Shown here: one piece after another, positions 17,369 to 39,269 of the stretch
Layout of the letters: every line of letters begins with the position of its first letter
How positions within the stretch are numbered: the stretch's first letter is position 1
Source of the DNA: Azospirillaceae bacterium
GTDB taxonomy: Bacteria; Pseudomonadota; Alphaproteobacteria; Azospirillales; Azospirillaceae
Reading direction: 5' to 3'
Length of the DNA: 64,000 nt
Assembly: GCA_028283825.1 (NCBI GenBank)
Contig: JAPWJW010000005.1
Location: forward strand, 62,001 to 126,000
Made by a program: the position numbers and the translations under genes
Notes under the pieces: generated by a model
Told to the model about the DNA's origin: nothing
The model's input: only the letters and a program-made list of their open reading frames with translations
The model's database searches: none

Positions 17369-18445
17369 TTAGCGGGTGGCGCCCTTGGCCGCCCCGGAAG
17401 CCGCCCCTTGAGCCGGTTCCAGTTCCTTCAGGGCCGCCTCGGCGAAACGCGGCTCGAACAAATCCGTCGCCTGGAATTTGCGGCGGATCAGCTTGTTGTC
17501 GAACGCGTAGTCGATGGCCTGCTGGTAATGCTGGCTCACGAAGCTGTCGAAGCGGGGGGACAGGACCATGGCGGCGTCCTTGTGCGCCCACTCCTTGGCG
17601 ATCAGGTCGTAGGGGGTGGCCTGGAACTTGGCCAGGTTCTGCAGATACTCCTCCCGATGCTCAGGCTGGGAGTAGTAGAGGGCGCCGCGCACATAGGCGC
17701 GGACCAGGCGCTGGGTGGTTTCCGGATACTTGTTGATGAAGTCCTCACTGCCGAACAGATCGGCGACGAACTTCCATTCCAGGGGCGCGTCCAGGGTGGA
17801 CCAGATGGGCTTGGCCAGGCCGCGCGACTGCAATTGCAGGCCGTTCAGGGTGAACTGGGCGTCCACCGTGCCGGCCGCCACGGCGGCGTCGCCGTCGGGC
17901 ATCACCAGATTATAAATCTGGAAATCGCTCATTTTCAGGTTGTTGGCCGCCAGCAGGTGGGAAAAGGCCAGCATCCACGGCCGGCCCATGTTCACCGCCA
18001 CCCGCTTGCCTTTCAGGTCCTGGATGGTCTTGGCGGTGGACCCGTTGGGCACCACCAGATAGGCCTCCAGCGAACCGCGCGTCACCGGCGACAGCAGCTT
18101 GATGGGGATGCCGCTGGACCGCGCGATGATGGCGGGGAAGTCGCCATAGTTGGCGAAATCGATCTGGTGGCCGGCGAAGGCCTCATTGATGCCGGGGCCG
18201 ACATTGACGAAGTACTTCCACTCGATCTTGGTGCCGGTGCCGGCGAATTCCTGCTCCAGCGCGTCGATGGTGGCTTGGCCGTAGGCGGAGCCGCGCACCG
18301 GCTGGCCGTCGGGGCCCAGCGCGCCCGGCGTGCCGATGCGGATGACGGCCGGCGGGGTTTCGGCCCGGGCGGTGTTCAGGCCCGGCAGCAAGGTTAGCAA
18401 GGCCAGGGCGGCGATGGCCGCGCGCCGGTGAAGGGGCGATCTCAT
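17369..18445 (-). CDS. ABC transporter substrate-binding protein, sulfonate/nitrate type
   Basis: A 358-residue periplasmic protein. The signal peptide ends near NTARA|ETP; the mature part has the SsuA/NrtA/ThiY fold with the GYGDxP-like motif here as ANYGDFPAII and a hinge segment LKGKRVAVNMGRPW. It is the last of three co-directional genes (desulfinase, nitroreductase, binding protein) facing away from two permeases and an ATPase on the other strand. These form the likely complete importer. The ligand is probably an organosulfonate or sulfinate, judged from neighbours only. Confidence 0.87.
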   Translation of the reverse strand: MRSPLHRRAAIAALALLTLLPGLNTARAETPPAVIRIGTPGALGPDGQPVRGSAYGQATIDALEQEFAGTGTKIEWKYFVNVGPGINEAFAGHQIDFANYGDFPAIIARSSGIPIKLLSPVTRGSLEAYLVVPNGSTAKTIQDLKGKRVAVNMGRPWMLAFSHLLAANNLKMSDFQIYNLVMPDGDAAVAAGTVDAQFTLNGLQLQSRGLAKPIWSTLDAPLEWKFVADLFGSEDFINKYPETTQRLVRAYVRGALYYSQPEHREEYLQNLAKFQATPYDLIAKEWAHKDAAMVLSPRFDSFVSQHYQQAIDYAFDNKLIRRKFQATDLFEPRFAEAALKELEPAQGAASGAAKGATR

Positions 18446-18459: not shown

Positions 18460-19059
18460 TCAGGCGGCGGGGAAGACGTCGGCGCCGACCAGTTGGCTGA
18501 GCGGCAGGCGGTCGCTGGGGAATTCACGCTGGCGCAGCGCCTCGGGCAGGGCGTCGGCGGGGGCCAGCTTGCCGATGGCGATGATGGCCTCGGTCGCGAA
18601 ATCGTCGGGGATGCGCAGGGCCTCGCGCGCCGCGGCATGGTCGAAACCGCCGATGCCGTGGGTGTGCCAGCCCAGCACGCTGGCCTGGTGGGCGAAGTTG
18701 GACCAGGCCGCCCCGCTGTCGAAGGAATGGGACCGGGCGGGCGCCCGCTCACCATTCCACACCAGGTGGGTTTGTGAGGCCACCAGGATCAGGGCCGACG
18801 CCTTCTCAGCCCAGGCCCGGTTGCTGCTGGACAGCAGGTTGACGAAGGTGGCCCAGCTGGCCGACCCGCGCTTGGAATAGACAAAGCGCCAGGGTTGCAG
18901 GTTGAAGCCGGAGGGGGCCCAGCGCGCCGCCTCGAACGCCGTCAGCAGCACGGCGTCGGGGATATCCTCCCCGGTGAAGGACCGGGGCGACCAGCGGCTG
19001 GTGAAGACGGGGGCGATATCGTGCGCGGCACGGCGGGGTGACGGGGGCAAGGTGGACAT
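18460..19059 (-). CDS. nitroreductase-family flavoprotein
   Basis: A 199-residue FMN-dependent reductase. FTSRWSPRSFTGEDIPD at the N-terminus, with the Arg-Ser FMN-binding pair, and ARWAPSGFNLQPWRFVY are family motifs; GWHTHGIGGFD follows at the usual position. It lies 11 bp downstream of the DszB-like gene and 14 bp upstream of the binding-protein gene, so it is cotranscribed. It may reduce a nitro or quinone group or supply reduced flavin; no oxygenase lies in this operon, so its exact part in sulfur release is open. Confidence 0.87.
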   Translation of the reverse strand: MSTLPPSPRRAAHDIAPVFTSRWSPRSFTGEDIPDAVLLTAFEAARWAPSGFNLQPWRFVYSKRGSASWATFVNLLSSSNRAWAEKASALILVASQTHLVWNGERAPARSHSFDSGAAWSNFAHQASVLGWHTHGIGGFDHAAAREALRIPDDFATEAIIAIGKLAPADALPEALRQREFPSDRLPLSQLVGADVFPAA

Positions 19060-19070: not shown

Positions 19071-20135
19071 TCAGACGGGCAGGGTGACGGCGCCCTGGGC
19101 CAGCAGGCGCTCGGCTTCCGCCAGGGGCTCAGGGTTGATCCAGGCGGCCACGTCCACGTCGCCGGCCAGGAAGCCCCGGTCGCGCAGGAAGTTCTTCTGG
19201 GTCTCGAACGCCGCGATCCAGTCGGGCGGCAGGCGCGGCTTCAGGCGCAGGTGCAGCTCGGGGCCGTAGGCGTCCAGCACGCTGGCCACGTCGGTAGACG
19301 TCTCGGCCGCCACGATGCGGCGCACGTCCTCGGCATGATCCGTCGCCCAGTCGGCGGTGGCCGACAGCACGGCCAGGTAGCGCGCCACCAGGTCCGGCCG
19401 GTTCTCCGCCAGGTTGCGGTTGACGGTGACGGGGCGGGGCGTGCCGTTGTTGATGCGGGCGGCCGGGTCGTCCACCGCGTTCAGGTCCACCACCACCTGC
19501 AGCCCGTGCTGGCGGCGCAGCGACACGGCGGCGGCGCCCTTGATGTAGACGGCGTCGATGGTCCCGGCCAGCAGGGCGTCGAAGGTCGGGTCGCGCCAGG
19601 GGCCCCGGCTGTCGCCCCGGCGGAACTCCGTCGGCGGGGCGGGCACGTCCACCAGGGTGACGTCGCCGGTGGTCAGGCCGGCCAGGCGCAGGGCGGAGAC
19701 GTAGCCGTGCAGCGCCATGGCGCGGGCGAAGTCGATGGCCTCGCCCCCGCGCTTGGGCAGGCCCAGGCGGCGGCCCTTCAGGTCGGCGGGGCCCCGGATG
19801 CCGCCGTCCGGCCGGGTCAGCAGCACCTGCGTCTCATCCACCCAGGTCAGCGCCACCACCGCCGTGTCCTGGCCCAGCGACTTCGCCCAGATGGCCGGGA
19901 TGTTCCCACCCTCGCGGAACAGGCCGGGCAGGCGGTGGTGGAAGTGCGACAGGCGCACCGCCGGGTCGGGCGCATCGGCCAGCGACTTGAGATCGATGCC
20001 GGTCCGGCCGAACTCCCCGCCCAGCCAACCCTGGTCCAGGGCGATGCCGGTGGCGGTGGGGACGGGGCAGCGCGTGTACCACAGTTCGGTGGTGTCGCCA
20101 GTGGGGGCGCTGGTGGGGGCGAGCGTATCGGGCAT
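19071..20135 (-). CDS. DszB-like sulfinate desulfinase (binding-protein fold, cytoplasmic)
   Basis: A 354-residue protein with the fold of SsuA-type binding proteins but no signal peptide. YTRCPVPTA at 20-28 aligns with the DszB active-site segment YSNCPVPNA, and SHFHHRLPGLFREGGNIP at 63-80 aligns with HFTYDQPAYTRFGGEIP. The DszB catalytic residues Cys27, His60 and Arg70 correspond to Cys23, His64 and Arg74, and the 10-residue His-Arg spacing is kept. DszB removes sulfite from an aryl sulfinate as the last step of the 4S desulfurisation route. A paralogue with the same three residues is at 33191. An AT-rich extension of the frame to 20201 lies in the promoter; ATG 20135 is preferred. Confidence 0.75.
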   Translation of the reverse strand: MPDTLAPTSAPTGDTTELWYTRCPVPTATGIALDQGWLGGEFGRTGIDLKSLADAPDPAVRLSHFHHRLPGLFREGGNIPAIWAKSLGQDTAVVALTWVDETQVLLTRPDGGIRGPADLKGRRLGLPKRGGEAIDFARAMALHGYVSALRLAGLTTGDVTLVDVPAPPTEFRRGDSRGPWRDPTFDALLAGTIDAVYIKGAAAVSLRRQHGLQVVVDLNAVDDPAARINNGTPRPVTVNRNLAENRPDLVARYLAVLSATADWATDHAEDVRRIVAAETSTDVASVLDAYGPELHLRLKPRLPPDWIAAFETQKNFLRDRGFLAGDVDVAAWINPEPLAEAERLLAQGAVTLPV

Positions 20136-20300
20136 GGCGGGGCTCACGGTTTGGGGAAAATAACATCTATTTATTGTTAAAATTCTAACATGGCGTTTCA
20201 TTGAGTGTCAATTGATTGACTTATTGGTCTATAGATTTTATAGAGAATTATGTTCCGGGCGGCGTTTTCCGCCTATTCGGGGTTTTGCGGGCAGGGGGTG
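20136..20300. promoter_or_regulatory. divergent promoter region with RTCTATMGAT element
   Basis: This AT-rich spacer separates the desulfinase and permease operons. GTCTATAGATTTTATAG at 20227-20243 is 57 bp before the permease start and matches 14 of 17 bases of the element before the SsuD-like gene at 30.3 kb. TAACA and TGTTA arms around TCTATTTAT lie near 20165-20180 on the desulfinase side. Confidence 0.55.
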
Positions 20301-21095
20301 ATGATGGCGTTGGCGGTGGGTGCTTCCCTGCGCAGGCGGGCCGCGGCGGCGGGATGGCCGCTGCTGGCGATTGCGCTGTTCCTGGCGGCGTGGGAGGCGG
20401 TGACCCGCACGGGCCTGTTCCCGCCCACCATCCTGGTGCCGTTGGAACAGGTGTGGCAGGCCTTCCTGGATCTCAGCGCCACGGGCGAGCTTCAGGACAA
20501 TCTGTGGGCCAGCGCCAGCCGCGTCATGACCGGCTTCGTCCTTGGCGGATCCACCGGCCTGGTGGTGGGCGTGGCCCTGGGCCTCAGCCCCCGGCTGGAA
20601 CGCTACATCGGCCTGCCGCTGGATATCGTGCGCCAGGTGCCTTTCATCGCCTGGGGGCCCATGCTGATCCTGCTGCTGGGGATAGGGGAGCCGTTCAAGA
20701 TCGCCATCATCGCCAACGCCGCCTTCTTCCCGGTGGCGCTGAACGCCTGCGACGGCGTGCGCAACGTCTCGGGGGCCTACCGCGACGTGGCGGCGCTGTA
20801 CCAGTTCAGCACCTGGCGCACCCTGCGCCGCATCGTGCTGCCGGCCTCGATGCCCGCCATCCTCACCGGCCTGCGCCTGGCGCTCAGCCGGTCATGGATG
20901 ATGGTGGTGGCGGCGGAGCTGTTCGGCGCCGACAGCGGCATCGGCCACATGATGAACTGGGCGCGCGAGATGTTTCAGCTGGACGTGGTCATGGTCGGCA
21001 TCGTCCTGACCGGCCTGATCGGCTTCGCCCTGGACCAGGTCCTGCGCGGTATCGAACGCCGCCTGTCCCCCTGGCGCCAACCCGCCGGCGCTTGA
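20301..21095 (+). CDS. SsuC-type ABC transporter permease 1
   Basis: A 264-residue inner-membrane protein with about six helices of the BPD-transporter type. YRDVAALYQFSTWRTLRRI with VLPASMPAIL forms the EAA loop that docks on the ATPase. ATG 20301 has an AGGGGG ribosome site just before it; ATG 20250 is a possible longer start but would sit almost on the promoter element. It is followed after 10 bp by a second, different permease, so the importer probably has a heterodimeric membrane domain. Confidence 0.87.
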   Translation: MMALAVGASLRRRAAAAGWPLLAIALFLAAWEAVTRTGLFPPTILVPLEQVWQAFLDLSATGELQDNLWASASRVMTGFVLGGSTGLVVGVALGLSPRLERYIGLPLDIVRQVPFIAWGPMLILLLGIGEPFKIAIIANAAFFPVALNACDGVRNVSGAYRDVAALYQFSTWRTLRRIVLPASMPAILTGLRLALSRSWMMVVAAELFGADSGIGHMMNWAREMFQLDVVMVGIVLTGLIGFALDQVLRGIERRLSPWRQPAGA

Positions 21096-21105: not shown

Positions 21106-21864
21106 ATGAAAACTTTCCGTATCGAGCTGCGCGGCCTGGCCGTGGTGATCGCCCTGGCCCTGGCCTGGGAGATCGGTGTGCGCTTCAGCGGGGCGGCCAA
21201 CGTGCCGTCCATCGGCGGCATGCTGGTGACAGCGCGAGCCGCCCTTGCCAACGGCGGCTTGCAGGAGAATTACCTGGCCAGCCTGATGCGCGTGGCCGTG
21301 GGTTTCGCCACCGGTGCGGGGGCCGGCGTCGCGGTCGGCGCCCTGCTGGGCATCTCCCGTTGGGCGGAGCGATTGGTGGGGCCGCCCATCACCCTGCTGC
21401 GCCAAGTGCCCATCCTGGGGCTGATCCCCATGCTGGGCCTGTGGTTCGGCATTGGCGAGACGGCCAAGATCGTGCTGGTCGCCATGGCGGCCTTCTACCC
21501 CGTGGCGCTGAACACGCATGAGGGCCTGCGCGGCGTGCCCGCCAGCTATCGCGACGTGGCGCGGGTGATGACCTTCAGCCGCTGGCGCCTGCTGCGCCGC
21601 GTGCTGCTGCCCTGGGCCATGCCGGCGGTGATGACCGGCCTGAAGCAGGGGCTGGCCTTCGCCTGGATCGCCGTCGTGGCGGCGGAACTGTTCCTGGCGA
21701 CCGCACCCGGCGTCGGCAACATCCTGGAGGCCGGGCGCAACCTGTTCCAGATGAACACCATCCTGCTGGGCATGGCGCTGATCGGCGCCACCGGCGCCCT
21801 CATGAACATCCTGGTCACGCTGCTGGAACGCCGCCTGCTGCGCTGGCGCACCACCTTCGCCTGA
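21106..21864 (+). CDS. SsuC-type ABC transporter permease 2
   Basis: A 252-residue inner-membrane protein related to the preceding permease. Its EAA loop is YRDVARVMTFSRWRLLRRV followed by LLPWAMPAVMTGL, and it has the family pair QVPILGLIPMLGLWFGIGE. Such SsuC/TauC proteins normally act as homodimers. Two adjacent unlike permeases with one ATPase suggest a heterodimer, or two importers sharing an ATPase. Confidence 0.9.
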   Translation: MKTFRIELRGLAVVIALALAWEIGVRFSGAANVPSIGGMLVTARAALANGGLQENYLASLMRVAVGFATGAGAGVAVGALLGISRWAERLVGPPITLLRQVPILGLIPMLGLWFGIGETAKIVLVAMAAFYPVALNTHEGLRGVPASYRDVARVMTFSRWRLLRRVLLPWAMPAVMTGLKQGLAFAWIAVVAAELFLATAPGVGNILEAGRNLFQMNTILLGMALIGATGALMNILVTLLERRLLRWRTTFA

Positions 21865-21891: not shown

Positions 21892-22725
<834 letters not shown>

Positions 22726-27756: not shown

Positions 27757-27781
27757 CCGCCACATCGCTGGTCGCGGGGGT

Positions 27782-28945
27782 TTATTCTGCGGCCAGCGAT
27801 GCCGGTGTGGGGCGGAACAGGGGCAGCAGTTCCTCACCCACCCGATAGGCTTCCTCCAGGTGCGGGGGTGAGGCCAGGATGAAGGTGTCGACACCGATGG
27901 CGGCGTAGGCGTTCAGGGTTTCCGCCACCTGGGCGTAGTCGCCGACAATGGTGACGGCCGGGCCCGGCCGCACCACGCCTTCGCCCACCCACAGGCTGGG
28001 GCTGATCTTGCTGTCCTCGAAATGGCTGGCGTTGGCGTAGCGTGCTGCCCAGGCGCGCTCGGCCGCTGCTGCGTCGATGTCGTCGCCGGTCAGTTCCTGG
28101 CGCTGGCGCACGGCCGTGCGGTCGGCGGTCTCCCACAAATGGCGCGCATCCTCCCACGCCTCCTCATGGCTGGCGCGGGCGATGACGTCCACGCGGACGG
28201 CGTGGCGCAGGCGGCGGCCGTGGCCGGTGGCGGCCTCGTTCAGGCGGGCCAGCTTGGCCGCCAGGTCCGACAGGGGTTCCGCCCAGGTGGTGTAGACGTC
28301 GGCATGGCGGGCGGCGATGTCCAGGGCGACATCGGAGGTGCCGGACAGGTAGACGGTGGGCGGGGTCACGGCGCTGACCGGATGCTGAAGCCCGCCATGG
28401 TCCACCTGGTAGAAGGCGCCCTCATGGCTGAAGTCCTTATGGGTCAGCACGCCGCGCGCGATGTCCAGGAAATCGCCGGTGCGGCGGTAGCGGTCCTCCA
28501 CCGGGGCGAAGTCGCCCCAGCGGCGCTGCACCTTGTCGTTCTCCCCCGCCACGATGTTCCAGTCCAGGCGGTTGCCGGAATGGCGCTGGGCGGTGGCGGT
28601 GGTGCGCGCCGCGTGCACCGGCTTGGTGGTCGCGGTGTGGAAGGACGGCAGGAAGCGCAGATAGCGCGTCTCGCGGATCAGGGCGCCGGCCACCACGAAC
28701 GGCTCCTCCCCCGTCGGCGTGGCGGGCACCAGCACGCCGTCGAAGCCCGTGGCCTCCGCCGCCTGGGCCACGCGGGCCAGATGGTCGAAATAGGTGAAGC
28801 GGCTGCGGTCCTGCTGGCGGTGGCTGGTGGCGCCGGGGAAATAGCCCGGCGTCGTCTCCGCACCCGTGTGCAGGTTCCACAGATCCAGGTTCTTAAGCCG
28901 GCTGTCGCCATCCGTGGGCAGGCGCCAATGGAAGTTCAGGGTCAT
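27782..28945 (-). CDS. SsuD-like FMNH2-dependent monooxygenase 1
   Basis: A 387-residue member of the bacterial luciferase-like superfamily. FHWRLPTDGDSR at the N-terminus matches SsuD WFLPTHGDG; RLDWNIVAG, YLSGTSDVALDIAA and HLEEAYRVGEELLPLF match SsuD in order and spacing. Such enzymes split the C-S bond of alkanesulfonates with FMNH2 and O2 to give aldehyde and sulfite, and need a separate flavin reductase; one is encoded at 34280. The active-site arginine/histidine region (RHAVRVDVIARA) is present. The paralogue at 29113 is upstream in the same orientation with repeat copy 3 between them. Confidence 0.87.
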   Translation of the reverse strand: MTLNFHWRLPTDGDSRLKNLDLWNLHTGAETTPGYFPGATSHRQQDRSRFTYFDHLARVAQAAEATGFDGVLVPATPTGEEPFVVAGALIRETRYLRFLPSFHTATTKPVHAARTTATAQRHSGNRLDWNIVAGENDKVQRRWGDFAPVEDRYRRTGDFLDIARGVLTHKDFSHEGAFYQVDHGGLQHPVSAVTPPTVYLSGTSDVALDIAARHADVYTTWAEPLSDLAAKLARLNEAATGHGRRLRHAVRVDVIARASHEEAWEDARHLWETADRTAVRQRQELTGDDIDAAAAERAWAARYANASHFEDSKISPSLWVGEGVVRPGPAVTIVGDYAQVAETLNAYAAIGVDTFILASPPHLEEAYRVGEELLPLFRPTPASLAAE

Positions 28946-28968
28946 GGGATGAGAGTCCTTTTCGTGTG

Positions 28969-29063
28969 CCCTCAGGCGCCGGGCGCCGCCATCCGGCGGC
29001 TTGGGACTATCCTCGCTGCGCCCTGCGGTGCTCGCTGCGGGGCCGGCGGTCGCCGGCCTGGAA
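28969..29063 (+). repeat. structured intergenic repeat, copy 3
   Basis: It starts CCCTCAGGCGCCGGGCGC. Hairpin A is GCCGCC-ATCC-GGCGGC (28985-29000) followed by TTGG; hairpin C is GGCCGGC-GGTC-GCCGGCC (29041-29058). The middle part differs from copies 1 and 2. It lies between the two SsuD-like genes, antisense to their transcription. Confidence 0.75.
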
Positions 29064-29112
29064 AAAGCGTGGGAGCACAGGTGCGGCGGGAGGCGTCGGG
29101 GGCAGGGTGGCG

Positions 29113-30270
29113 TTATTCGGCGGCGTGGCGGTTGGCGGCGGCGGGGCGCTGGCGCAGTAGGGGCAGGATTTCCTCACCCACGCGGTAGGATTCCTCCAGG
29201 TGCGGGCTGCCGGCCAGGATGAAGGAGGTGACGCCCAGATCGATCAGTTCGTTCAACTGCTCGGCCACCTGCTGATAGCTGCCGACCAGGCCCACGCCCG
29301 GGCCGCCGCGCAGCAGGTTGAAACCGCCCCAGCGGGCTGGACCCACCTTCAGATCCTGCCAATGGCGTGCACCATCGGGGCGAAAGGACCGCTGGCGGGC
29401 GGCACCCACGGATTCGGCGGGACCGGCGGCGAAGCGCGCCTCGATGTCCTCCGGGGTCAGGCGTTCCCAGGCGCGGGCGACCTCGCGCCAGGCCTGTTCC
29501 TCCGTCCGGCGGGCCAGGATCTCGATGCGCAGGGCGTAGCCGGCCTTGCGGCCGGCGGCGGCCGACCGCTCCTGGATCTTCAGGATGTTCTCCCGCACCT
29601 GCTCGATCGGCTCCAGCCAGTTCAGTTGCAGGTCGGCATGGTCGGCGGCCACGGCGGTGGCGTTGTCGGATGAGCCCGACAAGAACAGCTTGGGCAGCTT
29701 TTCCAGCGAGTGGGGGGCCTGCAATCCGCCGCCCTCCACCTGGAAGATCTTGCCGTTAAAGTCGTAGGGCTCTCCCTTGAACTCGGCCTTCACCACCTCA
29801 AGGAATTCCCGCGTGCGGTTATAGCGGTCGGCGTGGGGCAGGTAGTCGCCGTACCAGCGCTGCGACGGGCCGCCGCCGCCGGTGATGATGTTCCATTCCA
29901 CCCGCCCGCCGGTGGCGCGCTGTAGCGAGGCCGCCTTCTGTGCGGCGTGCACCGGGTGGATGAAGTTGGGCTGGAAGGCGATCAGGAAATTCAGCGTCTT
30001 GGTCTCGCGCGCCAGGGCGGCGGACACCGCCCACGCCTCCTCCGTCTGGGGGAAGGAGATGACCAGCGCGCCGGAGAAGCCGGAGATTTCCGCCGCCTTG
30101 GCGATTTCCGCCGCGTGGTTGATGAAGGGGATGCCGTCCGGTTCGCCATCGCGCAGGCCGGGCGCGATGTTACCGGCGCGCAAGGGCGTCCAGTCACCCC
30201 GGTTGGCCGTCTTGGCCAGGTTGCCGTGGCAGCCGTGCAGGGGCAGGCGCCAATAGAATTCCACGGTCAT
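29113..30270 (-). CDS. SsuD-like FMNH2-dependent monooxygenase 2
   Basis: A 385-residue luciferase-like monooxygenase. FYWRLPLHGCHGN, RVEWNIITGGG, FLSGSSDNATAVAA and HLEESYRVGEEILPLL align with SsuD and with the neighbouring monooxygenase. ATG 30270 (MTVEFYW) is chosen; the longer frame crosses the promoter. An RTCTATMGAT-like element lies 67 bp before the start, matching the element of the sulfonate permease operon. Two unlike SsuD paralogues in a row suggest different sulfonate substrates. The enzyme needs FMNH2 from a partner reductase. Confidence 0.87.
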   Translation of the reverse strand: MTVEFYWRLPLHGCHGNLAKTANRGDWTPLRAGNIAPGLRDGEPDGIPFINHAAEIAKAAEISGFSGALVISFPQTEEAWAVSAALARETKTLNFLIAFQPNFIHPVHAAQKAASLQRATGGRVEWNIITGGGGPSQRWYGDYLPHADRYNRTREFLEVVKAEFKGEPYDFNGKIFQVEGGGLQAPHSLEKLPKLFLSGSSDNATAVAADHADLQLNWLEPIEQVRENILKIQERSAAAGRKAGYALRIEILARRTEEQAWREVARAWERLTPEDIEARFAAGPAESVGAARQRSFRPDGARHWQDLKVGPARWGGFNLLRGGPGVGLVGSYQQVAEQLNELIDLGVTSFILAGSPHLEESYRVGEEILPLLRQRPAAANRHAAE

Positions 30271-30733
30271 AGCTGTACATCGCCTCCGTCTCAGCAAGCC
30301 TATTTCACAGGCCGATTTTGCGATCATACACAGAAAACTATTAAAACCATAGACAATAGCGAGATTATGGGTTACCTCCCTTAACACAAGGTTCGTGAAG
30401 CCACGCATGAGCTGCCCGAACCAAGCGGAAAACCAGGGGCCGGGTTCGGGGAAGGCAGTGCCGTCCCATCAAATAAGGCCCTGGAATCAAATAGAAATCG
30501 CAGTTGGCGGGATGGGTGGAAGCCTGGCCCGTCCGAAGAAGGGGAAGCATCGTGGCGCATGGATCGAAGGTGCCTGGGCCTGGGGGAATGACGGCGGCGT
30601 GCCGTCTGTCGTGTACGGCGGGCGCCCCGTAAGGCGGTGCCCCCGGACCCGACTCACCGCATCGAACTCAACACCAGGCGTGCCGGCGACCGCCGCCGCT
30701 GGTGAAAAAACAGACCTTCCGGAGCCTTATAAG
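30271..30733. promoter_or_regulatory. divergent promoter region of SsuD-like genes and TonB receptor
   Basis: It separates the monooxygenase genes from the TonB receptor. At 30338-30354, read on the minus strand, is GTCTATGGTTTTAATAG, the shared sulfur-region element. Coding potential to the left of 30734 is poor, and the long open frame there is ignored. No promoter for the receptor could be fixed. Confidence 0.5.
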
Positions 30734-33151
30734 ATGAAATGCCCCGCCCGGCTGCGGCACACCGCCAGCGCCTTCGCCATCACCGTCTCGTTCGCGTCGT
30801 CCGCCTTCGCCGCCGATGCTCCCGCCCCGGCCAACGCGGCCACCCCGGCGGCGCCCGCCGATGCCGCCGACGCCTCCGCCACCGATGCGGCGGACGCCGA
30901 CGGCATCACCACCATCCTGGTACAGGCGCAGCGCCGCACGGAAAGTGCGCGCGACGTGCCCTTGGCCCTGTCGGTGGTGACGGGCGACACCATCCTCAGC
31001 AACGACGGCATCAAGCGGACCAGCGACATCGTCAAGCTGATCCCCAACGCGTCCGCCGCCTCCACCGAGGGGCCGGAACGGCCGCGCTGGTTCATCCGGG
31101 GCATCGGCACCAACAACACCGGCGCCAACACGGTGAACCCGATTGGCATCTATTACGACGATGTCTACATCGCCAACGTCTATAACCAGGGCCTGCCGCT
31201 GTACGACGTCGACCATGTCGAGGCGCTGAACGGTCCGCAGGGCACGCTGTGGGGCAAGAATTCCAACGGCGGCGCCATCAGCTTCGTTTCCAAGGCGCCG
31301 ACCTTCGATCCCGACGGCTACGCCAAGGTCGGCTACGGCAGCTTCAATGAGCGCCAGGTGCAGGGGGCGGTCAGCGACGCCCTGACCGACAAGCTGGCCG
31401 GGCGCCTATCCTTCTATTACGATGGCAGCGACGGCTGGCAGAAGAACCTGTACGACGGACGCACCCTGGGCGGCGGCGATGACGTGGCGGCGCGCGCGCA
31501 ACTGCTGCTGCACGCGTCCGACACCCTGACCGCCAGCGTCAACCTGCACATCCGCCGTTTCGACGGCACCACCCGGCCCAGCGACTACATCGCGGACAGC
31601 GTCGCCCCCCTGACGGCGGGCACCGCGGCGCAGAAGTCCTTCCTGTCCGTCTTCCCCGATGGCCTGCCGCACACCAGCGGCTACGGTGAGGTCAACCTGA
31701 CCAACCCCGGCATCGAAAAGCTGGATGAGAAGGGGGCGCAGGGCAAGGTGGTGTGGGATCCCGGCTACCTGACCGTCACCTCCATCAGCGGGTTTGAGAC
31801 CAACAAGCGTACCCAGACCACGGCCTATGGTTCCGTGCCCAGCAACAGCGCCTATGCCGGCACGCCGTTCTCACAAAGCTATTCCGAGGCCGACTACTGG
31901 CAGGCCAGCCAGGAACTACGCATCGCCTCCCCGTCGGAGGACCGCTTCACCTGGCTGGGGGGCTTGTATTTCTTTGATGAGAACCTGTCGACCCAGGCGG
32001 CCAGCGCCAACTACATCCGCGGCACGGTGGCAACCGCCAACGCCTGGGGCACCGGCCCGCAGTTCACCAAGAACCCCTACAACCAGGATTGGCTGAGCTA
32101 TTCCGCCTTCGGCAACGTCGGCTACAAGATCACCGACGACTTCAAGATCAGCGGCGGCCTGCGCTGGTCGCGCGAACGCACTTCGATCCAGGAGGCGTAC
32201 TACGCCGCCAACACCGGTTCCACCGCCAGCACCTTCATTTCCAACCTGCCGCAGACGCAGTACTGGCTGTATTCCGCGCCCAAGCTGTTCTCCGACAGCC
32301 AGGCGCAGGTCACCCGGTCGTGGACCTACGACATCACGCCGGAATACAAGATCAACGAGAACGTCCTCTCCTACTTCCGCTACGCCCATGGCGTGCTGCC
32401 CGGCGGCTACACCGTCACCGGTTACGTCGCCGTGCCGGGAACTACGGTCAAGGCGGTGCAGCTGTACCGTTTGAACCCGGAGGAGCTGGACTCCTATGAG
32501 GTCGGCCTCAAGACCAACTGGTTCAACAACAAGCTGGAAGTGGACCTGACCGGCTTCCACTACGACTACACCAACGCGGTGGTCAACGTGCCGACCATCG
32601 TCGACCCCACCAACCCGTCCAGCGTCACCGTGCTGTTCCGCAACGCCGGTGCGGAAGAGGTGTGGGGTGGCGAGCTGCGGGCCGATGCGGCCCCCATCCA
32701 CGGCCTGCATGTCGGCGGCACCCTGGGGCTGCTGAACACCAAGTACACGGGCGACACCGGCAGCACCGCCACCATCCTGGGGGCGCAGGCGCCGCGCTCC
32801 CCCCATGTCAGCCTGACGGCCTACGCCAATTATGACCAGCACCTGCCCTGGGGCGGCGACGTGATCTACAGCGTGGATGGCAGCTGGCGGTCGCAGCAGT
32901 ACTTCTACCCCACCATCGCCTCGCAGATCAGCAGCCCCGATCCGCTGCTGAAGGCCGACGCCTACGGCATCGTCAACGCCAGCATCGCCTGGCAGCCGCG
33001 CGACGACGGCAAGCTGTCGTTCGAATTCTCCGTCCAGAACCTGACCGACACCAAGTACGTGGAGCTGGGCCTGCCCGTGGCCAACGGCTCGGTCGACCAG
33101 CGTTTCGGCCAGCCGCGCAGCTTCTTCTTCTCCGTCACCGACCGGTTCTGA
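30734..33151 (+). CDS. TonB-dependent receptor of the sulfur region 1
   Basis: An 805-residue outer-membrane receptor. The signal peptide ends SSAFA|ADA; a low-complexity Ala/Asp segment of about 25 residues follows, then the TonB-box-like ITTILVQAQRR, the plug (LALSVVTGDTI, DHVEALNGPQGTLWGKNSN) and a 22-strand barrel ending in FSVTDRF. It belongs to the iron-independent group often used for organic nutrients. ATG 30734 has CGGAG upstream. It is followed after 39 bp by a DszB-like gene and a flavin reductase, so a sulfur compound is the probable cargo. Confidence 0.88.
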   Translation: MKCPARLRHTASAFAITVSFASSAFAADAPAPANAATPAAPADAADASATDAADADGITTILVQAQRRTESARDVPLALSVVTGDTILSNDGIKRTSDIVKLIPNASAASTEGPERPRWFIRGIGTNNTGANTVNPIGIYYDDVYIANVYNQGLPLYDVDHVEALNGPQGTLWGKNSNGGAISFVSKAPTFDPDGYAKVGYGSFNERQVQGAVSDALTDKLAGRLSFYYDGSDGWQKNLYDGRTLGGGDDVAARAQLLLHASDTLTASVNLHIRRFDGTTRPSDYIADSVAPLTAGTAAQKSFLSVFPDGLPHTSGYGEVNLTNPGIEKLDEKGAQGKVVWDPGYLTVTSISGFETNKRTQTTAYGSVPSNSAYAGTPFSQSYSEADYWQASQELRIASPSEDRFTWLGGLYFFDENLSTQAASANYIRGTVATANAWGTGPQFTKNPYNQDWLSYSAFGNVGYKITDDFKISGGLRWSRERTSIQEAYYAANTGSTASTFISNLPQTQYWLYSAPKLFSDSQAQVTRSWTYDITPEYKINENVLSYFRYAHGVLPGGYTVTGYVAVPGTTVKAVQLYRLNPEELDSYEVGLKTNWFNNKLEVDLTGFHYDYTNAVVNVPTIVDPTNPSSVTVLFRNAGAEEVWGGELRADAAPIHGLHVGGTLGLLNTKYTGDTGSTATILGAQAPRSPHVSLTAYANYDQHLPWGGDVIYSVDGSWRSQQYFYPTIASQISSPDPLLKADAYGIVNASIAWQPRDDGKLSFEFSVQNLTDTKYVELGLPVANGSVDQRFGQPRSFFFSVTDRF

Positions 33152-33190
33152 CCGGCCGCCCCTTCCTCGTGAATGTAAAGGGTACGCGAC

Positions 33191-34276
33191 ATGTCGACAA
33201 TATCATTGGCGAAGCCGGCGGCCGCATCCGCGCTGGACAAGGTCTATTTCACCCGCTGCCCGGTGCCGACGGCCACCGGCCTGGCCTACAAGCTGGGCTG
33301 GCTGGGGCAGGAATTCGCCGCCGACGGCATCGCGGTGGAAACCTTGCAGGAGGGGGGGCAGCTGGAGCTGCGCCGCCACCATTACGACCATGAGCTGCCC
33401 ACCCTGATCCGTGAGGGCGGCAACATGCTGGCGCTCGGCGCCCGGGCCCAGGGGGCGCCCACCCGCCTGATCGGCCTGACCTGGATCGACGAGTGGCAGT
33501 CCATCCTGGTGCGGGCCGACAGCGGCATCACCGAGCCGCATCATTTGAAGGGCAAGCGGCTGGCGCTGCCGTCCTACGCCAAGAACCCCATCCCCTCGCA
33601 CGTGCGGGGCACCAGCATCGCCCGCGGCATGTCGCTGCACGGCTACAAGGGCGTGCTGACCAATGCCGGGCTGACCTTCGACGATGTCGAGTTCGTTGAG
33701 GTTCACGCCGGGGGCGAGGCCGGGCGGGGTGCGCGGGCGCCGGAGGGGCAGCGCGGCAACATCTGGCGCCTGTGGGCGCTGGATGAGCTGGCCGAGGGCA
33801 AGGTCGATGCCATCTACGTCAAGGGTGCCTCGGCCGTTGACGCCGCGCGGGAGTACGGCGTGGTGGTGGGCATCGATCTGGACCGGCTGCCGGAACGGCG
33901 CTTCCGCGTCAACAACGGCACGCCGCGTCCCATCACGGTGAATGAGGAACTGCTGGGCCGCCACTATGACGTGGTGGTGCGCTTCCTGGCCCAGACCCTG
34001 CGCGCCGCCGACTGGGCCCGCGACAACGCCGAGGGCGTGCAGGACATCCTCCAGGGTGAGACACGGGGCAGCCGCCAGGCGGTGACGGAGGCCTACGGCG
34101 CCGACTTCAACCGGCTGCTGCACCCCGATTTGTCGGAGGAGCGCCTGACGCTGTTCGAACAGCAGAAGAAGTTCCTGTGGCTGCACGGCTTCCTGGACCA
34201 TGACTTCGACCTGCGCGCCTGGGCCGACCACCGGCCGCTGGCCGACGCCCGCCGGCTGCTGGACGACCGGGGCTGA
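33191..34276 (+). CDS. DszB-like sulfinate desulfinase 2
   Basis: A 361-residue cytoplasmic protein with no signal peptide. YFTRCPVPTATG (19-30), RHHYDHELPTLIREGGN (62-78) and VDAIYVKGASAVDAAREYG are the same landmarks as in the protein at 19071 and in DszB. The presumed catalytic residues are Cys23, His64 and Arg74, at the same positions in both paralogues. Automatic annotation would call it an ABC transporter substrate-binding protein; the lack of a signal peptide and the Cys-His-Arg set argue against that. It is cotranscribed with the flavin reductase 3 bp downstream and follows a TonB receptor, so it probably takes part in organosulfur breakdown. Confidence 0.78.
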   Translation: MSTISLAKPAAASALDKVYFTRCPVPTATGLAYKLGWLGQEFAADGIAVETLQEGGQLELRRHHYDHELPTLIREGGNMLALGARAQGAPTRLIGLTWIDEWQSILVRADSGITEPHHLKGKRLALPSYAKNPIPSHVRGTSIARGMSLHGYKGVLTNAGLTFDDVEFVEVHAGGEAGRGARAPEGQRGNIWRLWALDELAEGKVDAIYVKGASAVDAAREYGVVVGIDLDRLPERRFRVNNGTPRPITVNEELLGRHYDVVVRFLAQTLRAADWARDNAEGVQDILQGETRGSRQAVTEAYGADFNRLLHPDLSEERLTLFEQQKKFLWLHGFLDHDFDLRAWADHRPLADARRLLDDRG

Positions 34277-34279
34277 GCC

Positions 34280-34825
34280 ATGGGTAAGGCGATCAACGAC
34301 GTCCTCCGCGCGGCGCTGCAGGTCCTGCCGCCAGTGGAGGGTGAGGAGCTGGTGCAGAAGAATGTGGCCGATGGGCTGAAGGCGGCCATGCGCCGGCTGG
34401 CGGCCGGGGTCGCGGTCATCACCCTGGCGGATGGGGAGGGGCTGGCCGGCACCACGGTCAGCTCGCTCACCTCCCTCTGCCTGGACCCGCCGGCCGTGCT
34501 GTTCTGCCTGAACCAGGGGGCCAGCCTGCACGACCGGCTGCTGCGCGCCGACACCTACGCCGTCAACCTGCTGTCGGCGGGGCAGGAGGAGGTGTCGCAG
34601 CGTTTCGCCGCCGCCGGCCCCGACCGCTTCACGCCTGGGGCGTGGGAGACGGTGCGGGGTGCCCCGTGCCTGAAGGGCGCGCAGGCCAACCTGGTCTGCC
34701 GGCTGGCGGTGGACCTGCCCTTCGGCACCCACCGCATCATCGTCGGCAAGGTGCTGTGGACGCGGGTGCGCGAACAGACCGACCCGCTGCTGTACGCCGA
34801 CGGCGCCTACCGCGTTTTGGGCTGA
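34280..34825 (+). CDS. flavin reductase (DszD/HpaC-like)
   Basis: A 181-residue protein of the FMN-binding split-barrel group. AAMRRLAAGVAVITLADG is the first motif; GLAGTTVSSLTSLCLDPP is the typical flavin-binding loop, followed by AVLFCLNQGAS; FGTHRIIVGKVLWTRV closes the domain. It would supply reduced FMN to the SsuD-like monooxygenases at 27.8-30.3 kb, since no other flavin reductase of this family is in the window. The start lies 3 bp after the desulfinase stop. Confidence 0.87.
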   Translation: MGKAINDVLRAALQVLPPVEGEELVQKNVADGLKAAMRRLAAGVAVITLADGEGLAGTTVSSLTSLCLDPPAVLFCLNQGASLHDRLLRADTYAVNLLSAGQEEVSQRFAAAGPDRFTPGAWETVRGAPCLKGAQANLVCRLAVDLPFGTHRIIVGKVLWTRVREQTDPLLYADGAYRVLG

Positions 34826-34872
34826 TCGGACCCGTCTTGGGGGGCGGGCGCCGAGCCATGCGCGCGGCGTCC

Positions 34873-34901
34873 GTTATATAAGAAATTTTAAATAATATAA
34901 C
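34873..34901. promoter_or_regulatory. inverted repeat before TonB receptor 2
   Basis: GTTATAT and ATATAAC arms are separated by 15 AT-rich bases and lie 22-51 bp before the receptor start. The position suits an operator over the promoter; the regulator is unknown. Confidence 0.45.
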
Positions 34902-34923
34902 AGACATCAGGGGAGCAAAAAGG

Positions 34924-37104
34924 ATGTCATTCAAGCAAAAAATCAACGTCACGATGGGTGGACTGCTGGCGGGAACCCTGCTGGCCTCCGCCGCCCTGGC
35001 GGACACGGCCCCCGCGACGGATGCCGGCAATGACCTGTCGGAGATCGTGGTCACGGCGCTGAAACGCGAAACCCGCATCCAGGAAACCCCGGCCGCCGTC
35101 TCGGTGGTGTCGGATGACGCCCTGCGCAACGCCAACATCCGTGAGTTCGACGACCTGGCGCGGGAAATCCCCGGGCTGGAGATCACCGACGCCGGCCCCG
35201 GCCAGCGCCGCGTCGCCATCCGCGGCATCCGCAGCGCCGGCGACAGCCAGGTCGGCATCTATTACGACGAATCCCCGCTGGTGAACCCGCCGGGCACCAC
35301 CAGCGATCCCGGCGCCAACACCAGCGATTTCCGCCTGTTCGACGTGGAACGGGTGGAGGCTTTGCGCGGTCCCCAGGGCACGCTCTACGGCGCCGGCGCC
35401 ATGGGCGGCGCCATCCGCGTCATCTTCAAGAAGCCGACCTTCGATTATGAGGGCACGGTGGACGTCACCGGCACCACGGTGGATGGCGGCGGCGAGGGCT
35501 ATCAGGTCAACGCCGCCATCAACGTGCCCCTGATCGACAACAAGCTGGCGGTGCGCGCGGCGGGCTTCAAGCAGTACAGCCCGGGCTGGATCAACAACCC
35601 CGGCCTGGGCCTGAAGAACGTCAATGACGACCAGTCTGAGGGCGGGCGCTTCCTGGCCCGCTTGCTGCCCACGGAATGGCTGACCCTGGACGCCCTGTTC
35701 TATTACCAGGACGACCAGGGCGGCCCCACCGGCTGGTCGCCCAGCGCCGGCCAGTACAATTCCATCGACAAGGCCTACCTGCCGTTCGACGACCGCACCC
35801 GCCTGGGCAGCCTGACGGCCAACGCGGACCTGGACGTGGCCAAGCTGACGGTCACCAGTTCGTACCAGAGCCGCAACTTCCTGATGACCCGGGACCCGAA
35901 CTACCTGTTCTCCATCCTCAAGGCCACCTCGGCCATGCCGGGGCTGTATTACCAGCCGCAGTCGGTCACCGACTGGACCAATGAGGTGCGGTTGCAATCC
36001 AGTGAGCCCGGCCGCCTGCAATGGACGGTGGGTGGATACTTCGAGCACCGCAACGCCAACGTCCTGTCCGAAGGCCACGTCATCGACAAGGACGGCTTCG
36101 ACGTCGATCCCGTGAAGCTCAGCCTGCAACGCTATATCGGCGACAAGCTGGACCAGGAGGCGGCGTTCGGCGAGGTGTCGTATGAGCTGATCGACAACCT
36201 GACCTTCACCCAGGGCCTGCGTTTCTACAACTACGACAAGACGGTTTCCGGCGCCACGACGGTGGGCCTGGCCGCCCTGGGCACGGCCGTCAGCCCCTAC
36301 AAGGAATGGTCCACCAACAACCAGGGCCTGCTGTACAAGAGCAACCTCAGCTACAAGTTCTCCGACCAGGTCTTCGTCTATTTCCAGGCGGCGTCCGGCT
36401 TCCGCCCCGGCGGCATCAACCAGGCCATCGGCCTGGCGACGGCGGCCCCCTACCAGCCCGACAGCCTGTGGACCTATGAGGTCGGGGTGAAGACCAGCTT
36501 CCTGGACGACCACCTGTCGGTGAACCTGACCGGTTACCGCACCGACTGGGACAACATGCAGGTCAGCCTGAACAGCGGCACCTTCTCCTACCTCGGTAAC
36601 GCCGGTTCCGCCCGCGTGCAGGGGCTGGAGGCGGAGGTAACGGCGACCCCCATCCCCGGCCTGCAAATCACGGCCAACGGCACGGTGCTGGGCGCCAACC
36701 TGACGGCGGACCAGATCGCCACCGGTGCTGTGGCATCCGCCACCACCGGCCGCGCCGGCGACCGCATCCCCAACATCCCGGAGCTGACCGCCACCCTGTC
36801 CGCCCAGTACGAATGGACCTTGGTGCCGGACTGGAAGGCCCTGGTGCGGGGCGACGGTTCCTACGTCGGGCCGTCATATTCCGACTTCCACCAGTCCAGC
36901 CAGTACCACGAGATCGGCGATTACACCGTGTTCAACGCCCGCGTGGGCGTGGAGCACCAGGGCTGGGGCTTCTTCCTGTTCGCCAACAACCTGCTGAACC
37001 GTGTGGCCCGCGTGTCCGCCGGCAACGTGCTGGGCGGTTCGCTGGAAACCGAGGTCACGCTGCCGCCGCGCACCATCGGCGCCAACCTCACCAAGTCGTT
37101 CTGA
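34924..37104 (+). CDS. TonB-dependent receptor of the sulfur region 2
   Basis: A 726-residue outer-membrane receptor. The signal peptide ends SAALA|DTA; a TonB-box-like LSEIVVTALKRE, plug motifs (PAAVSVVSDDALRN, ERVEALRGPQGTLYGAGAMGG) and a full barrel ending ANLTKSF are present. It belongs to the same nutrient-receptor group as the receptor at 30734 but is distinct in sequence, so the cargo may differ. RBS GGGGAGC precedes ATG 34924. An inverted repeat lies in its promoter. It converges on the rhodanese-fold gene. Confidence 0.88.
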   Translation: MSFKQKINVTMGGLLAGTLLASAALADTAPATDAGNDLSEIVVTALKRETRIQETPAAVSVVSDDALRNANIREFDDLAREIPGLEITDAGPGQRRVAIRGIRSAGDSQVGIYYDESPLVNPPGTTSDPGANTSDFRLFDVERVEALRGPQGTLYGAGAMGGAIRVIFKKPTFDYEGTVDVTGTTVDGGGEGYQVNAAINVPLIDNKLAVRAAGFKQYSPGWINNPGLGLKNVNDDQSEGGRFLARLLPTEWLTLDALFYYQDDQGGPTGWSPSAGQYNSIDKAYLPFDDRTRLGSLTANADLDVAKLTVTSSYQSRNFLMTRDPNYLFSILKATSAMPGLYYQPQSVTDWTNEVRLQSSEPGRLQWTVGGYFEHRNANVLSEGHVIDKDGFDVDPVKLSLQRYIGDKLDQEAAFGEVSYELIDNLTFTQGLRFYNYDKTVSGATTVGLAALGTAVSPYKEWSTNNQGLLYKSNLSYKFSDQVFVYFQAASGFRPGGINQAIGLATAAPYQPDSLWTYEVGVKTSFLDDHLSVNLTGYRTDWDNMQVSLNSGTFSYLGNAGSARVQGLEAEVTATPIPGLQITANGTVLGANLTADQIATGAVASATTGRAGDRIPNIPELTATLSAQYEWTLVPDWKALVRGDGSYVGPSYSDFHQSSQYHEIGDYTVFNARVGVEHQGWGFFLFANNLLNRVARVSAGNVLGGSLETEVTLPPRTIGANLTKSF

Positions 37105-37148: not shown

Positions 37149-38420
37149 TCACAGGGCCCGGTAGCGCGTCAGCCCGTCCCGCCGCAGCTGGGCGATCACC
37201 TGCTGTTCCCAGGCGCTGTAGGCGGCGACGGCTTCGGCCGGCGGTGGCGCGGTGGGGCCCTTGGCGGGGGCCGGCGTGCCGTTCGCGGCGCCGTCCGGCG
37301 TGCCCGCCTGCAAGGGACCCAGGGCGTGGGCGTGCTCGGTGCCCAGCACGACCACGTCCTGCCATCCCATCTGCCGCAAGCCGGCGGCGGTGACCAGGGC
37401 GCGGACGCCGTCCAGGTCGGCCAGCACCAGCCGGGCGCCGGCCACGCCCACCTGCTGGTCCACCAGGGGCAACAGCCGGTCGCTGGGCAGGGGGCGGAAA
37501 CCGGGGATCAGGCCGGCGCGGTGTTCTTCCCCGCCGCGCACGTCGAATTCATACAGGGTGCGGCCATCGTCCCGGCGCCATTGTTCCAGCGTCGTCCGGT
37601 CGATGGTGACGACGCCGGCCTTGTCCGCCAGCCGCCGCGCCTGGGTTTGCGCGGCCGCCACGGCGGCGGATGACACGGGCGGCTGGGTCCGCGCCTCGGC
37701 CAGCGGGTGGCCCGCCAGGCTCCAGCCGATGATGCCGTGCTGCAGGGCCGCCACCGGGTTGGGCACGCCGGCGTCGATCAGCAACTGCGCCATGATGATG
37801 CTGCGCGCGTGGCCGCCGCTGGCGGTGACGATGGTGGTGCGCGGCGACGGCGCCAGGTCGGCCAGCCGGTACAGGATCTCCGCCGCCGCCACCTTGACGG
37901 CACCGGGTATGCTCAAGGGGCCGGCCTCGGTCGCCGGTCCTACGTCGATGACGACCAAATCGTCGCCGGCGTCGATGCGGGCCTTCAGGTCCGGGGCGGT
38001 GATCAGGGGGGTGCTGCGCACATCCGCCACCCAGGCGCCGAAGGCCTTGCACGCCACGTTGGTGCCCCAGAACACCTCGCCGCCGGCCGCACTCCAGGCC
38101 GTCAGGCCGCCGGACAGGATGGTGATGTCGCGATACCCCAGTTGGGCCAAGGCCTGGGCCGCGCGCTTGTCGCGGCCGGCCGTGTCGCCCAGCAGCACGA
38201 TGGGGGCGTCAAGCCGGGGAACCAGCGCCGCGATCTTGCGCTCAAGCGCCGGCAGGGGGACGGAGACGCTGCCGAAGGCGTGGCCCTCGGCGTACTCGAT
38301 GGCGTCGCGGACATCCAGGAAGGCGGTCTCCCGTCCCTGGCGCAGATGCTGGCGCACCGTCGCGGCCTTGGCGGTGCGGATGCCGGGTGAGGTGGTTCGG
38401 AAAGGGGGGGAGGCAGTCAT
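37149..38420 (-). CDS. triple rhodanese-fold protein lacking catalytic cysteines
   Basis: A 423-residue cytoplasmic protein with three rhodanese domains (about 20-115, 140-240 and 270-365). Each has the LDVRD / VIDVG / EFDVRG entrance strand and the GYRDITILSGGLTAW-type close. The catalytic loop normally reads C-x-x-G-x-x-R-S. Here domain 1 has LLGDTAGRDKRA, domain 2 has IVTASGGHARSI and domain 3 has LADLDGVRA, so the active-site cysteine is absent in all three. Sulfurtransferase activity of the classical kind is therefore unlikely. It may sense or bind a sulfur compound. It is close to the Rrf2 gene and two sulfur operons. ATG 38420 is chosen; longer starts lie in promoter-like sequence. Confidence 0.8.
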   Translation of the reverse strand: MTASPPFRTTSPGIRTAKAATVRQHLRQGRETAFLDVRDAIEYAEGHAFGSVSVPLPALERKIAALVPRLDAPIVLLGDTAGRDKRAAQALAQLGYRDITILSGGLTAWSAAGGEVFWGTNVACKAFGAWVADVRSTPLITAPDLKARIDAGDDLVVIDVGPATEAGPLSIPGAVKVAAAEILYRLADLAPSPRTTIVTASGGHARSIIMAQLLIDAGVPNPVAALQHGIIGWSLAGHPLAEARTQPPVSSAAVAAAQTQARRLADKAGVVTIDRTTLEQWRRDDGRTLYEFDVRGGEEHRAGLIPGFRPLPSDRLLPLVDQQVGVAGARLVLADLDGVRALVTAAGLRQMGWQDVVVLGTEHAHALGPLQAGTPDGAANGTPAPAKGPTAPPPAEAVAAYSAWEQQVIAQLRRDGLTRYRAL

Positions 38421-38819
38421 AACGGTCACCGCGGGAAAGGGGCGCTCAAACGGCGCTGTCGGTCGGCTGGGCGGGAGAAGTGGGCCGCACGTCGCGCGGT
38501 CCGGCGGGCCCGACATCGGTGGCCGGTGCCGTCCAGGCCTTCCCATCGGGGGACCGGATATGGATCGGGGCAGGGGGCGGGGATGCCCGCAAGGATGTAG
38601 CCGTTCAACCTTTCCCCCAATTCAACACGTGAAATTATGGATAAATATTCACAATCCACAGATTGAGAGTCAATTTTGAATTAATAACTATATTATAATG
38701 TTAAATATAAACGCGTTAAACCTTCGCGAGTGTTGCAATTCGCGCGAATGAATCTTATCTAAAAGGATTCCCTGGAATAACAGACGGCTAGCAAGGGGCG
38801 GCCGGGCGGCGGTGGCGGC
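38421..38819. promoter_or_regulatory. AT-rich promoter region of the rhodanese-fold gene
   Basis: The segment 38620-38710 is very AT-rich (for example AACTATATTATAATG) and should hold the promoter of the minus-strand gene. I see no coding region. No clear copy of the sulfur-region element was found. Confidence 0.45.
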
Positions 38820-39269
38820 CTAGATGTCGTACATCAGCACGAATTCGCGATCGTCCGACTTGCGCTGCATATCAGCGATGCTTGTTTGGTCCAGGATGTC
38901 CGCCATGGCGTCGCGCACGTCCAGCATCACGGCCCGGATGGCGCAGTTTCGCACATCCGTACAATCCTCGCAGGGCTTGAACGACCCCCGGCTGGCGCAG
39001 GCGATGGGGGCGATGGGGCCGTCCAGGATGCGGATGACCTGGCCGACCATGATGGTGTTGGCCGGCCGCGCCAGGGAATAACCGCCGCCGGGGCCCTTCT
39101 TGGAATTCAGGATGCCGTGCTTGCGCAATTCCAGCAGGATGGCGTCCAGGAATTTCTTGGGCAGCTGGTTCTTTTCGGCGATGTCCGAAATGAGGGAGGC
39201 GGGGCCGTCCGCGTTTTCCGCCAAGTAAATTAAGGCTTTAAGACCGTATTTCGCTTTATTGGATAACAT
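38820..39269 (-). CDS. Rrf2-family transcription regulator with cysteine cluster
   Basis: A 149-residue protein. The winged helix (YGLKALIYLA; ISDIAEKNQLPKKFLDAIL; KKGPGGGYSLA) is typical of Rrf2/IscR/CymR/NsrR. Four cysteines in the wing-dimer region (ACASRGSF, PCEDC, RNC) match the pattern that holds an Fe-S cluster in IscR and NsrR; here the spacing is CX8CX2CX6C. It may sense iron, NO or cysteine status; CymR-like cysteine control would suit its place next to the sulfur genes and cysE. Direct evidence for the DNA target is lacking. Confidence 0.9.
   Translation of the reverse strand: MLSNKAKYGLKALIYLAENADGPASLISDIAEKNQLPKKFLDAILLELRKHGILNSKKGPGGGYSLARPANTIMVGQVIRILDGPIAPIACASRGSFKPCEDCTDVRNCAIRAVMLDVRDAMADILDQTSIADMQRKSDDREFVLMYDI

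Follow-up and report, generated by a model that had tools for sequence, protein, structure and literature searches.

What does the DszB-like protein encoded at 33191 do, and with which of its neighbours does it work? We address this question within the window, the whole 64,000-nucleotide stretch of DNA analysed here, and call genes by their lower coordinate. DszB, which it resembles, strips sulfur from compounds of fossil fuels. The protein is probably a DszB-type sulfinate desulfinase that works in the cytoplasm without a cofactor, carrying out the last step of a Bds-type pathway for scavenging organosulfur compounds.

A DszB-like gene in a divergent locus

The locus has a divergent layout. 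Leftward run two genes for LLM flavin monooxygenases, 29113..30270 (minus strand; probably 385 aa, in a frame that stays open to 30408), which proves to be the conserved partner of DszB-like genes, and 27782..28945 (minus strand; 387 aa). Rightward, all on the plus strand, lie a TonB-dependent receptor of 805 aa (30734..33151, in a frame open from 30395; the start at 30734 is likely, as a signal-peptide-like sequence begins there), the DszB-like gene (33191..34276, 361 aa), a flavin reductase of 181 aa (34280..34825) and a second TonB-dependent receptor of 726 aa (34924..37104). The reductase belongs to PF01613 (E 8.6e-38; 130.3 bits against a gathering cut-off of 27) and scores below the cut-offs of all eight NCBIfam flavin reductase subtypes listed.

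The original prediction had coupled the desulfinase to a flavin reductase 3 bp downstream and to a TonB receptor, and both neighbours are in place: 39 bp separate the first receptor gene from the start of the desulfinase gene, and the second receptor gene begins 98 bp past the reductase gene. It had also put desulfination and flavin-dependent oxygenation into one transcript, which fails for both LLM genes, as they lie on the opposite strand; at most the receptor, desulfinase and reductase genes could share one, and these three are presumably cotranscribed. A scan counted 2 promoter-like sites where 1.4 are expected and 4 terminator-like sites where 7.2 are expected, and no inverted repeats were reported in 28900-30800.

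To the right of the locus, 37149-41077 (minus strand) holds genes for a multi-domain rhodanese, an Rrf2 regulator and CysE. The best narrow model for the Rrf2 regulator is CymR, below its cut-off, and the protein is a possible cysteine-responsive regulator of the desulfinase locus. Farther away, the window encodes a dynamin-like protein with a DLP helical domain (6606-8357, plus strand; PF18709, E 6e-70) and a glycogen-type cluster (43129-54941, minus strand) of glucanotransferase, CBM48 protein, starch synthase, nucleotidyl transferase, branching enzyme and phosphorylase genes. GC content gave no clear sign of recent import. In the six congeners searched (G001-G006), no DszB-like gene came near the strength of this genome's pair (best E 1e-10), and the 33191 locus is thus patchy within the genus.

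Identification of the 33191 protein as a DszB-type desulfinase is well supported by sequence comparison and by its predicted fold. Against PDB sequences at E <= 0.001, it matches DszB entries only (2de2 at E 4.2e-16, the other entry at 1.5e-14). An AlphaFold model built from 21 window and locus sequences (mean pLDDT 84.5) likewise finds DszB as its best fold matches, with Z of 31.9 and 30.8 and rmsd of 3.1-3.2 over 309-315 residues. The active-site motif consists of C23, H64 and R74-E-G-G; the three residues, named in the original prediction for a 361-residue protein, are all present and align with C27, H60 and R70 of DszB. In the mutant data excerpted from PMC6100217, DszB C27S is inactive, H60Q lowers activity about 17-fold, and R70 lies within a conserved RXGG motif that is thought to be structural. 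The 33191 protein is therefore like DszB (PDB 2de2, 2de3) in fold, length and Cys/His/RxGG active site; it differs in sequence (about 25% identity), in having His67 where the alignment places Tyr63 of DszB, and in its surroundings, as no dszA or dszC neighbours were found at 33191.

These residues are widely kept. Of 62 DszB-type rows, 57 have the Cys, 60 the His and 61 the Arg, and no row lacks the second Gly of RxGG; DszB is included among these rows, and one gene (G195) is entered twice, as the L040 and L049 rows. Rows that keep Cys, His and RxGG span two phyla. Given such counts, and the lack of all three residues in binding protein 17369 in the same alignment, the conservation goes beyond chance. 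L011, which has masked bases, and the fragmentary L005 are left out of the residue counts and of the desulfinase tree, in which DszB itself is a loosely placed long branch. The Cys-to-Ser versions are L040 1812-3701, L041 365-1426, L042 353-1414, L046 371-2062 and L027 5248-7980, and each of these five loci also has a Cys-bearing DszB-like copy.

A paralogous DszB-like gene lies at 19071..20135 (minus strand; 354 aa from an internal ATG at 20135). Its active-site residues had been placed at exactly the same positions as those of the 33191 protein. This holds in the alignment and from the internal start (23/64/74), but not for the longest ORF, which extends to 20201; in its 376-aa product the three residues are numbered 45/86/96. 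The two proteins share 43% identity over 341 columns and fall into different clades, on which grounds we rejected a recent local duplication; 33191 clusters with Niveispirillum-type genes at 75-80% identity.

Around the paralogue, 11 bp downstream of it, is a gene for a nitroreductase-family protein (18460..19059, minus strand; PF00881), possibly a flavin reductase, followed by one for an SsuA-like binding protein with a signal-peptide-like N-terminus (17369..18445, minus strand; best NCBIfam model SsuA_fam, below cut-off). On the other side and on the plus strand are an ABC permease of Sao/Ssu/Tau type (20250..21095; PF00528), a second of Ssu/Sao type (21106..21864) and an ABC ATPase of Sao/nitrate/taurine type (21892..22725; PF00005), assignments for which the NCBIfam models score below cut-off in all three cases. 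Because these ABC genes and the rhodanese, Rrf2 regulator and CysE genes flank the locus, sulfur assimilation is its likely setting.

Partners of DszB-like genes across genomes

A scan of species genomes recovered 15 related loci, in Niveispirillum-type Alphaproteobacteria, Oxalobacteraceae and Actinomycetes. Together with plasmid records (loci drawn from 5 of the 87 records with a match) and sampled genomes, 25 loci belong to the 33191 clade, L011 by best match only; 22 have usable flanks, L011, L015 and L061 being too short for the neighbourhood count. An LLM of the 29113 type (at least 500 bits) is present in the flank of 19 of the 22, a pairing that spans Alpha- and Betaproteobacteria and Actinomycetes. 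The other three are L019, whose genome has such an LLM on another contig, L069 (a short contig) and L071. A receptor related to 30395 accompanies 11 of the 12 Gram-negative loci, L019 being the exception, and a nitroreductase like 18460 is found in 5 of the 22 flanks.

The flavin reductase behaves differently. With phmmer at E <= 1e-6, a homologue of 34280 appeared in one of the 22 relative loci (L067), about 6 kb from the DszB-like gene and not adjacent, a count from a single-sequence search that could miss a distant PF01613 protein. As none lies beside DszB in these 22 loci, and the reductase-desulfinase pairing is seen in the window's genome only, we rejected the reductase as a defining partner. 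Thus, although the original prediction was sound in calling a desulfinase, its stress on the flavin reductase was not, because that neighbour is local. The broader proposal that desulfination is linked to flavin-dependent oxygenation gains support, chiefly through the specific LLM monooxygenase type, 29113, that accompanies DszB. Another genome of the family contributes L052, where a DszB-like gene comes immediately after a related receptor gene that diverges from the LLM gene, as in the window; this DszB-like gene is a different copy, not the orthologue of 33191.

The pairing also holds in the reciprocal direction. DszB-like genes (E <= 1e-40) occur in 7 of 398 Pseudomonadota, the window's genome included, and 29113-type LLMs (E <= 1e-115) in 5, all of which are among the 7. 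Among 394 Actinomycetes the corresponding figures are 13 (E <= 1e-25) and 7 (E <= 1e-115), again with all 7 among the 13. Every one of the 12 genomes with such an LLM, of 792 sampled, therefore carries a DszB-like gene as well, and 8 of the 20 genomes with a DszB-like gene are without such an LLM. For each genome, these searches scored the 4 or 5 best candidates, and the LLM profile was made from genes near DszB; three of the 12 genomes (G000, G048 and G050) supplied rows to a profile, and 9 of the 12 were not profile sources. Nine of the 12 co-occurring LLMs reach at least 500 bits, 6 of these 9 from genomes that were not sources, and the other three (G107, G111 and G195), all from Pseudomonadota, are of a sister type at about 427 bits, which slightly lowers our confidence in the main reading.

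DszB-like genes also occur in other company. Rhizobial and Variovorax DszB-like genes lie in two plasmid records whose sequence yielded no 29113-type LLM. In Ensifer canadensis (L026, 5720-9050), two DszB-like genes flank a gene of the acyl-CoA dehydrogenase family that may be DszC-like, and an NtaA/DmoA-family monooxygenase gene is close by; this partner set differs from the 33191 type.

The LLM monooxygenases and alternative readings

Which reaction might the conserved LLM carry out? The original prediction spoke of SsuD-like enzymes, a label that is apt in that MsuD and SsuD are the nearest solved relatives of both window LLMs by sequence, and misleading if taken to mean alkanesulfonate monooxygenase: the SsuD model TIGR03565 gives 260.2 bits for 27782 and 256.6 for 29113, about half its equivalog cut-off of 518.2. 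At the SsuD active-site positions C54, R226, H228, R297 and Y331, of which C54, H228 and Y331 carry functional weight in SsuD, 29113 has T, R, E, R and S; the other SsuD homologue of the genome (L004) keeps all five. All 29113-type LLMs have Thr at C54, Asp, Glu or Asn at H228, and Ser, Thr, Val or Asn at Y331.

Flavin-binding and core positions are retained. All five FMN-phosphate residues are present in 29113 and its 19 relatives, and N105, W196, R226 and R297 are all kept in 29113 and in 16 of the 19, the three Niveispirillum-type loci keeping two of these four. A first residue count omitted frames of at least 450 aa or with stops; a second restored them as profile-aligned stretches, some cut before 297 and 331, with a gap scored as loss, and runs without L019_9043, L024_13882, L024_15256 and the L026 row. 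According to PMC8234197, MsuD depends for its activity on the counterparts of W196, R226 and R297, and the His that corresponds to H228 lies in the second shell and can be mutated with little effect. On this ground we withdrew the argument that a missing H228 proves a lack of sulfonate activity. From this residue pattern, like SsuD and MsuD in Asn105, Trp196, Arg226 and Arg297 and unlike them at the three other positions, we read 29113 as an enzyme that may still bind a sulfonyl group, though not in the SsuD manner. Its best fold match is MsuD (Z 40.6). It also has the fold of the dimethylsulfone monooxygenase SfnG (Z 35.4), which, according to the part of PMC8234197 that treats it, converts a sulfone to a sulfinate, the chemistry proposed here for 29113; both window LLMs score about 120 bits with the SfnG model, far below its cut-off of 383, and no protein of the genome scores above that cut-off.

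The second LLM gene tells a related story. A companion LLM is present in 20 relative loci and adjoins the first in 16 (L012, L013, L014, L016, L017, L018, L020-L024, L067, L068, L070, L072 and L073); it is not adjacent in L009, L010 and L052/L053, and L011 is cut. All 20 companions keep at most three of the five FMN-phosphate residues and at most two of the four core residues, rows cut before R297 being scored as loss. In a tree made by a quick method, from which four duplicates and L013_12845 were dropped, 19 companions form one group (SH-aLRT 92). The window's own 27782 keeps three of five FMN-phosphate and all four core residues and sits in that tree on a long branch that is loosely placed relative to the companion group; it may represent an intermediate stage or be active as an enzyme in its own right.

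Bacterial luciferase has a non-catalytic partner subunit, which the companion LLM resembles. This likeness suggests a bolder reading, which we hold as a tentative and somewhat doubtful proposal: a widespread, little-studied module with a luciferase-like two-subunit LLM oxygenase, in which the 29113-type subunit would be catalytic, the companion would serve structure or substrate delivery, and TonB receptors would feed the module in Gram-negatives. If TonB receptors do feed it, its substrate in nature would be an aromatic organosulfur compound that is large or diffuses poorly, and not a fuel thiophene.

How firmly these observations point to a desulfinase fed by an LLM depends on what else could explain them. 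The 33191 protein might be no enzyme at all and instead a binding protein of the SsuA/NMT1 fold, cytoplasmic or docked to a transporter. Its sole family hits are Pfam NMT1 and NCBIfam SsuA_fam, the latter below cut-off; several plasmid records label its relatives 'ABC transporter substrate-binding protein'; SsuA-type binding proteins rank next after DszB in the fold search (Z 25.7 and below); and the five Ser rows indicate that some paralogues live without the Cys. We nevertheless consider this unlikely, as DszB is the closest solved relative by both sequence and fold, and most rows, drawn from two phyla, retain Cys, His and RxGG. The N-terminus argues in the same direction. In a rough test of hydropathy over the first 35 residues, the highest 12-residue mean among 31 DszB-like proteins is 1.35, against 2.65 in the 17369 binding protein beside the paralogue, and 1 of 21 binding-protein rows (3 of which are the window's own gene) scored merely 0.72. 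By this measure the 33191 protein has no apparent signal peptide of the kind that SsuA-type export calls for, and it appears to be cytoplasmic.

If 33191 is an enzyme, it might still act on sulfinates of other origin (alkyl sulfinates, over-oxidised thiols or compounds from outside), with the LLMs working in parallel as sulfonate monooxygenases that release sulfite themselves. The retained N105, W196, R226 and R297, the MsuD fold match and the sulfonate-type transporter genes in the window all fit such an arrangement, and a sulfonate substrate of 29113 is possible, in which case no desulfinase would be needed. Parallel enzymes, however, need no pairing, whereas the co-occurrence is complete in the 12 LLM genomes, and C54, H228 and Y331 are altered in 29113 and its 19 relatives while L004 keeps all five positions; we judge this arrangement rather improbable. 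As a desulfinase would not be the constant partner of an enzyme that makes sulfite directly, the 29113-type LLM would make a sulfinate. A full 4S-type (dszABC) pathway for dibenzothiophene, to which the DszB homology of 33191 might point, would have DszA- and DszC-type genes beside DszB. The neighbours are instead SsuD-type LLMs, receptors and a reductase; the LLMs are of the SsuD/MsuD and not the DszA/NtaA type, and a genome search with the SfnB model TIGR04022 for an S-oxidising enzyme of the SfnB/DszC fold gave 12 matches, none above cut-off and none inside the window. Such a pathway is very improbable here.

A probable Bds-type pathway with TonB receptors

The reading that we prefer, a DszB-type desulfinase acting after a 29113-type LLM, has a parallel in bdsABC, the operon for benzothiophene desulfurization in Gordonia terrae C-6. 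In the annotation given in PMC3868597, GTC6_01620 to 01585 encode, one after another, a binding protein, a permease, an ATPase, a desulfinase, a monooxygenase, an alkanesulfonate monooxygenase, a hypothetical protein and a binding protein, and extracts of E. coli with G. terrae bdsABC, supplied with DszD, NADH and FMN, converted benzothiophene to o-hydroxystyrene. The Mumia locus L021 (binding protein, permease, ATPase, DszB, LLM, LLM, binding protein) has the same order minus the one hypothetical gene. Like the Gordonia cluster as annotated there, the window has a desulfinase gene, two monooxygenase genes and ABC genes of the sulfonate type; the Bds-type part list is complete within 17369-37104, in rearranged order. 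Unlike it, the window comes from a Gram-negative host, has TonB receptors and a reductase beside the desulfinase, and has monooxygenase genes that are divergent from the desulfinase gene. On this comparison, in which the link to BdsABC is drawn from gene order and published annotation and not from sequence, the locus appears to be a Gram-negative, TonB-linked variant of the Bds-type module. Matched by gene position, the counterpart of BdsB would be the companion LLM, an assignment hard to square with the DszC-like role proposed for BdsB. Other systems offer less: the genome of a sulfolane degrader, in the part of PMC6395730 that describes it, has a dszA homologue and no dszB, which is no help as a parallel, and no DszB analogue is reported for the Gordonia strain in the relevant part of PMC11852219.

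We envisage the following route. The TonB receptors and the sulfonate-type ABC transporter would import an organosulfur compound, and the 34280 flavin reductase, perhaps together with the 18460 nitroreductase-family protein, would supply FMNH2. With FMNH2, the 29113 LLM would turn a sulfone, probably an aromatic one, into a sulfinate by cutting one C-S bond; the DszB-like 33191 protein, with Cys23 as its key residue, would then break the second C-S bond and release sulfite, which would enter cysteine synthesis. Gene layout, homology, fold, conservation of the active site and the tight co-occurrence of DszB with this LLM type are observed; the direction of the route, its sulfone/sulfinate chemistry, an aromatic substrate, the roles in transport and the cotranscription of the receptor, desulfinase and reductase genes are inferred.

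The literature on DszB-type desulfination, among the matches listed, deals mainly with fuel desulfurization, and a full-text search for work joining sulfinate desulfinase, SsuD and TonB-dependent terms returned none, nor was there any among the matches listed. The 33191 locus probably belongs to a route, so far little studied, by which bacteria obtain sulfur from organic compounds. Because one LLM type was found only in sampled genomes that bear DszB-like genes, a direct test of the sulfinate-making enzyme is possible. If our reading is true, Gram-negatives carry a TonB-linked variant of the Bds pathway that genome surveys would miss because its desulfinases are annotated as transporter binding proteins.
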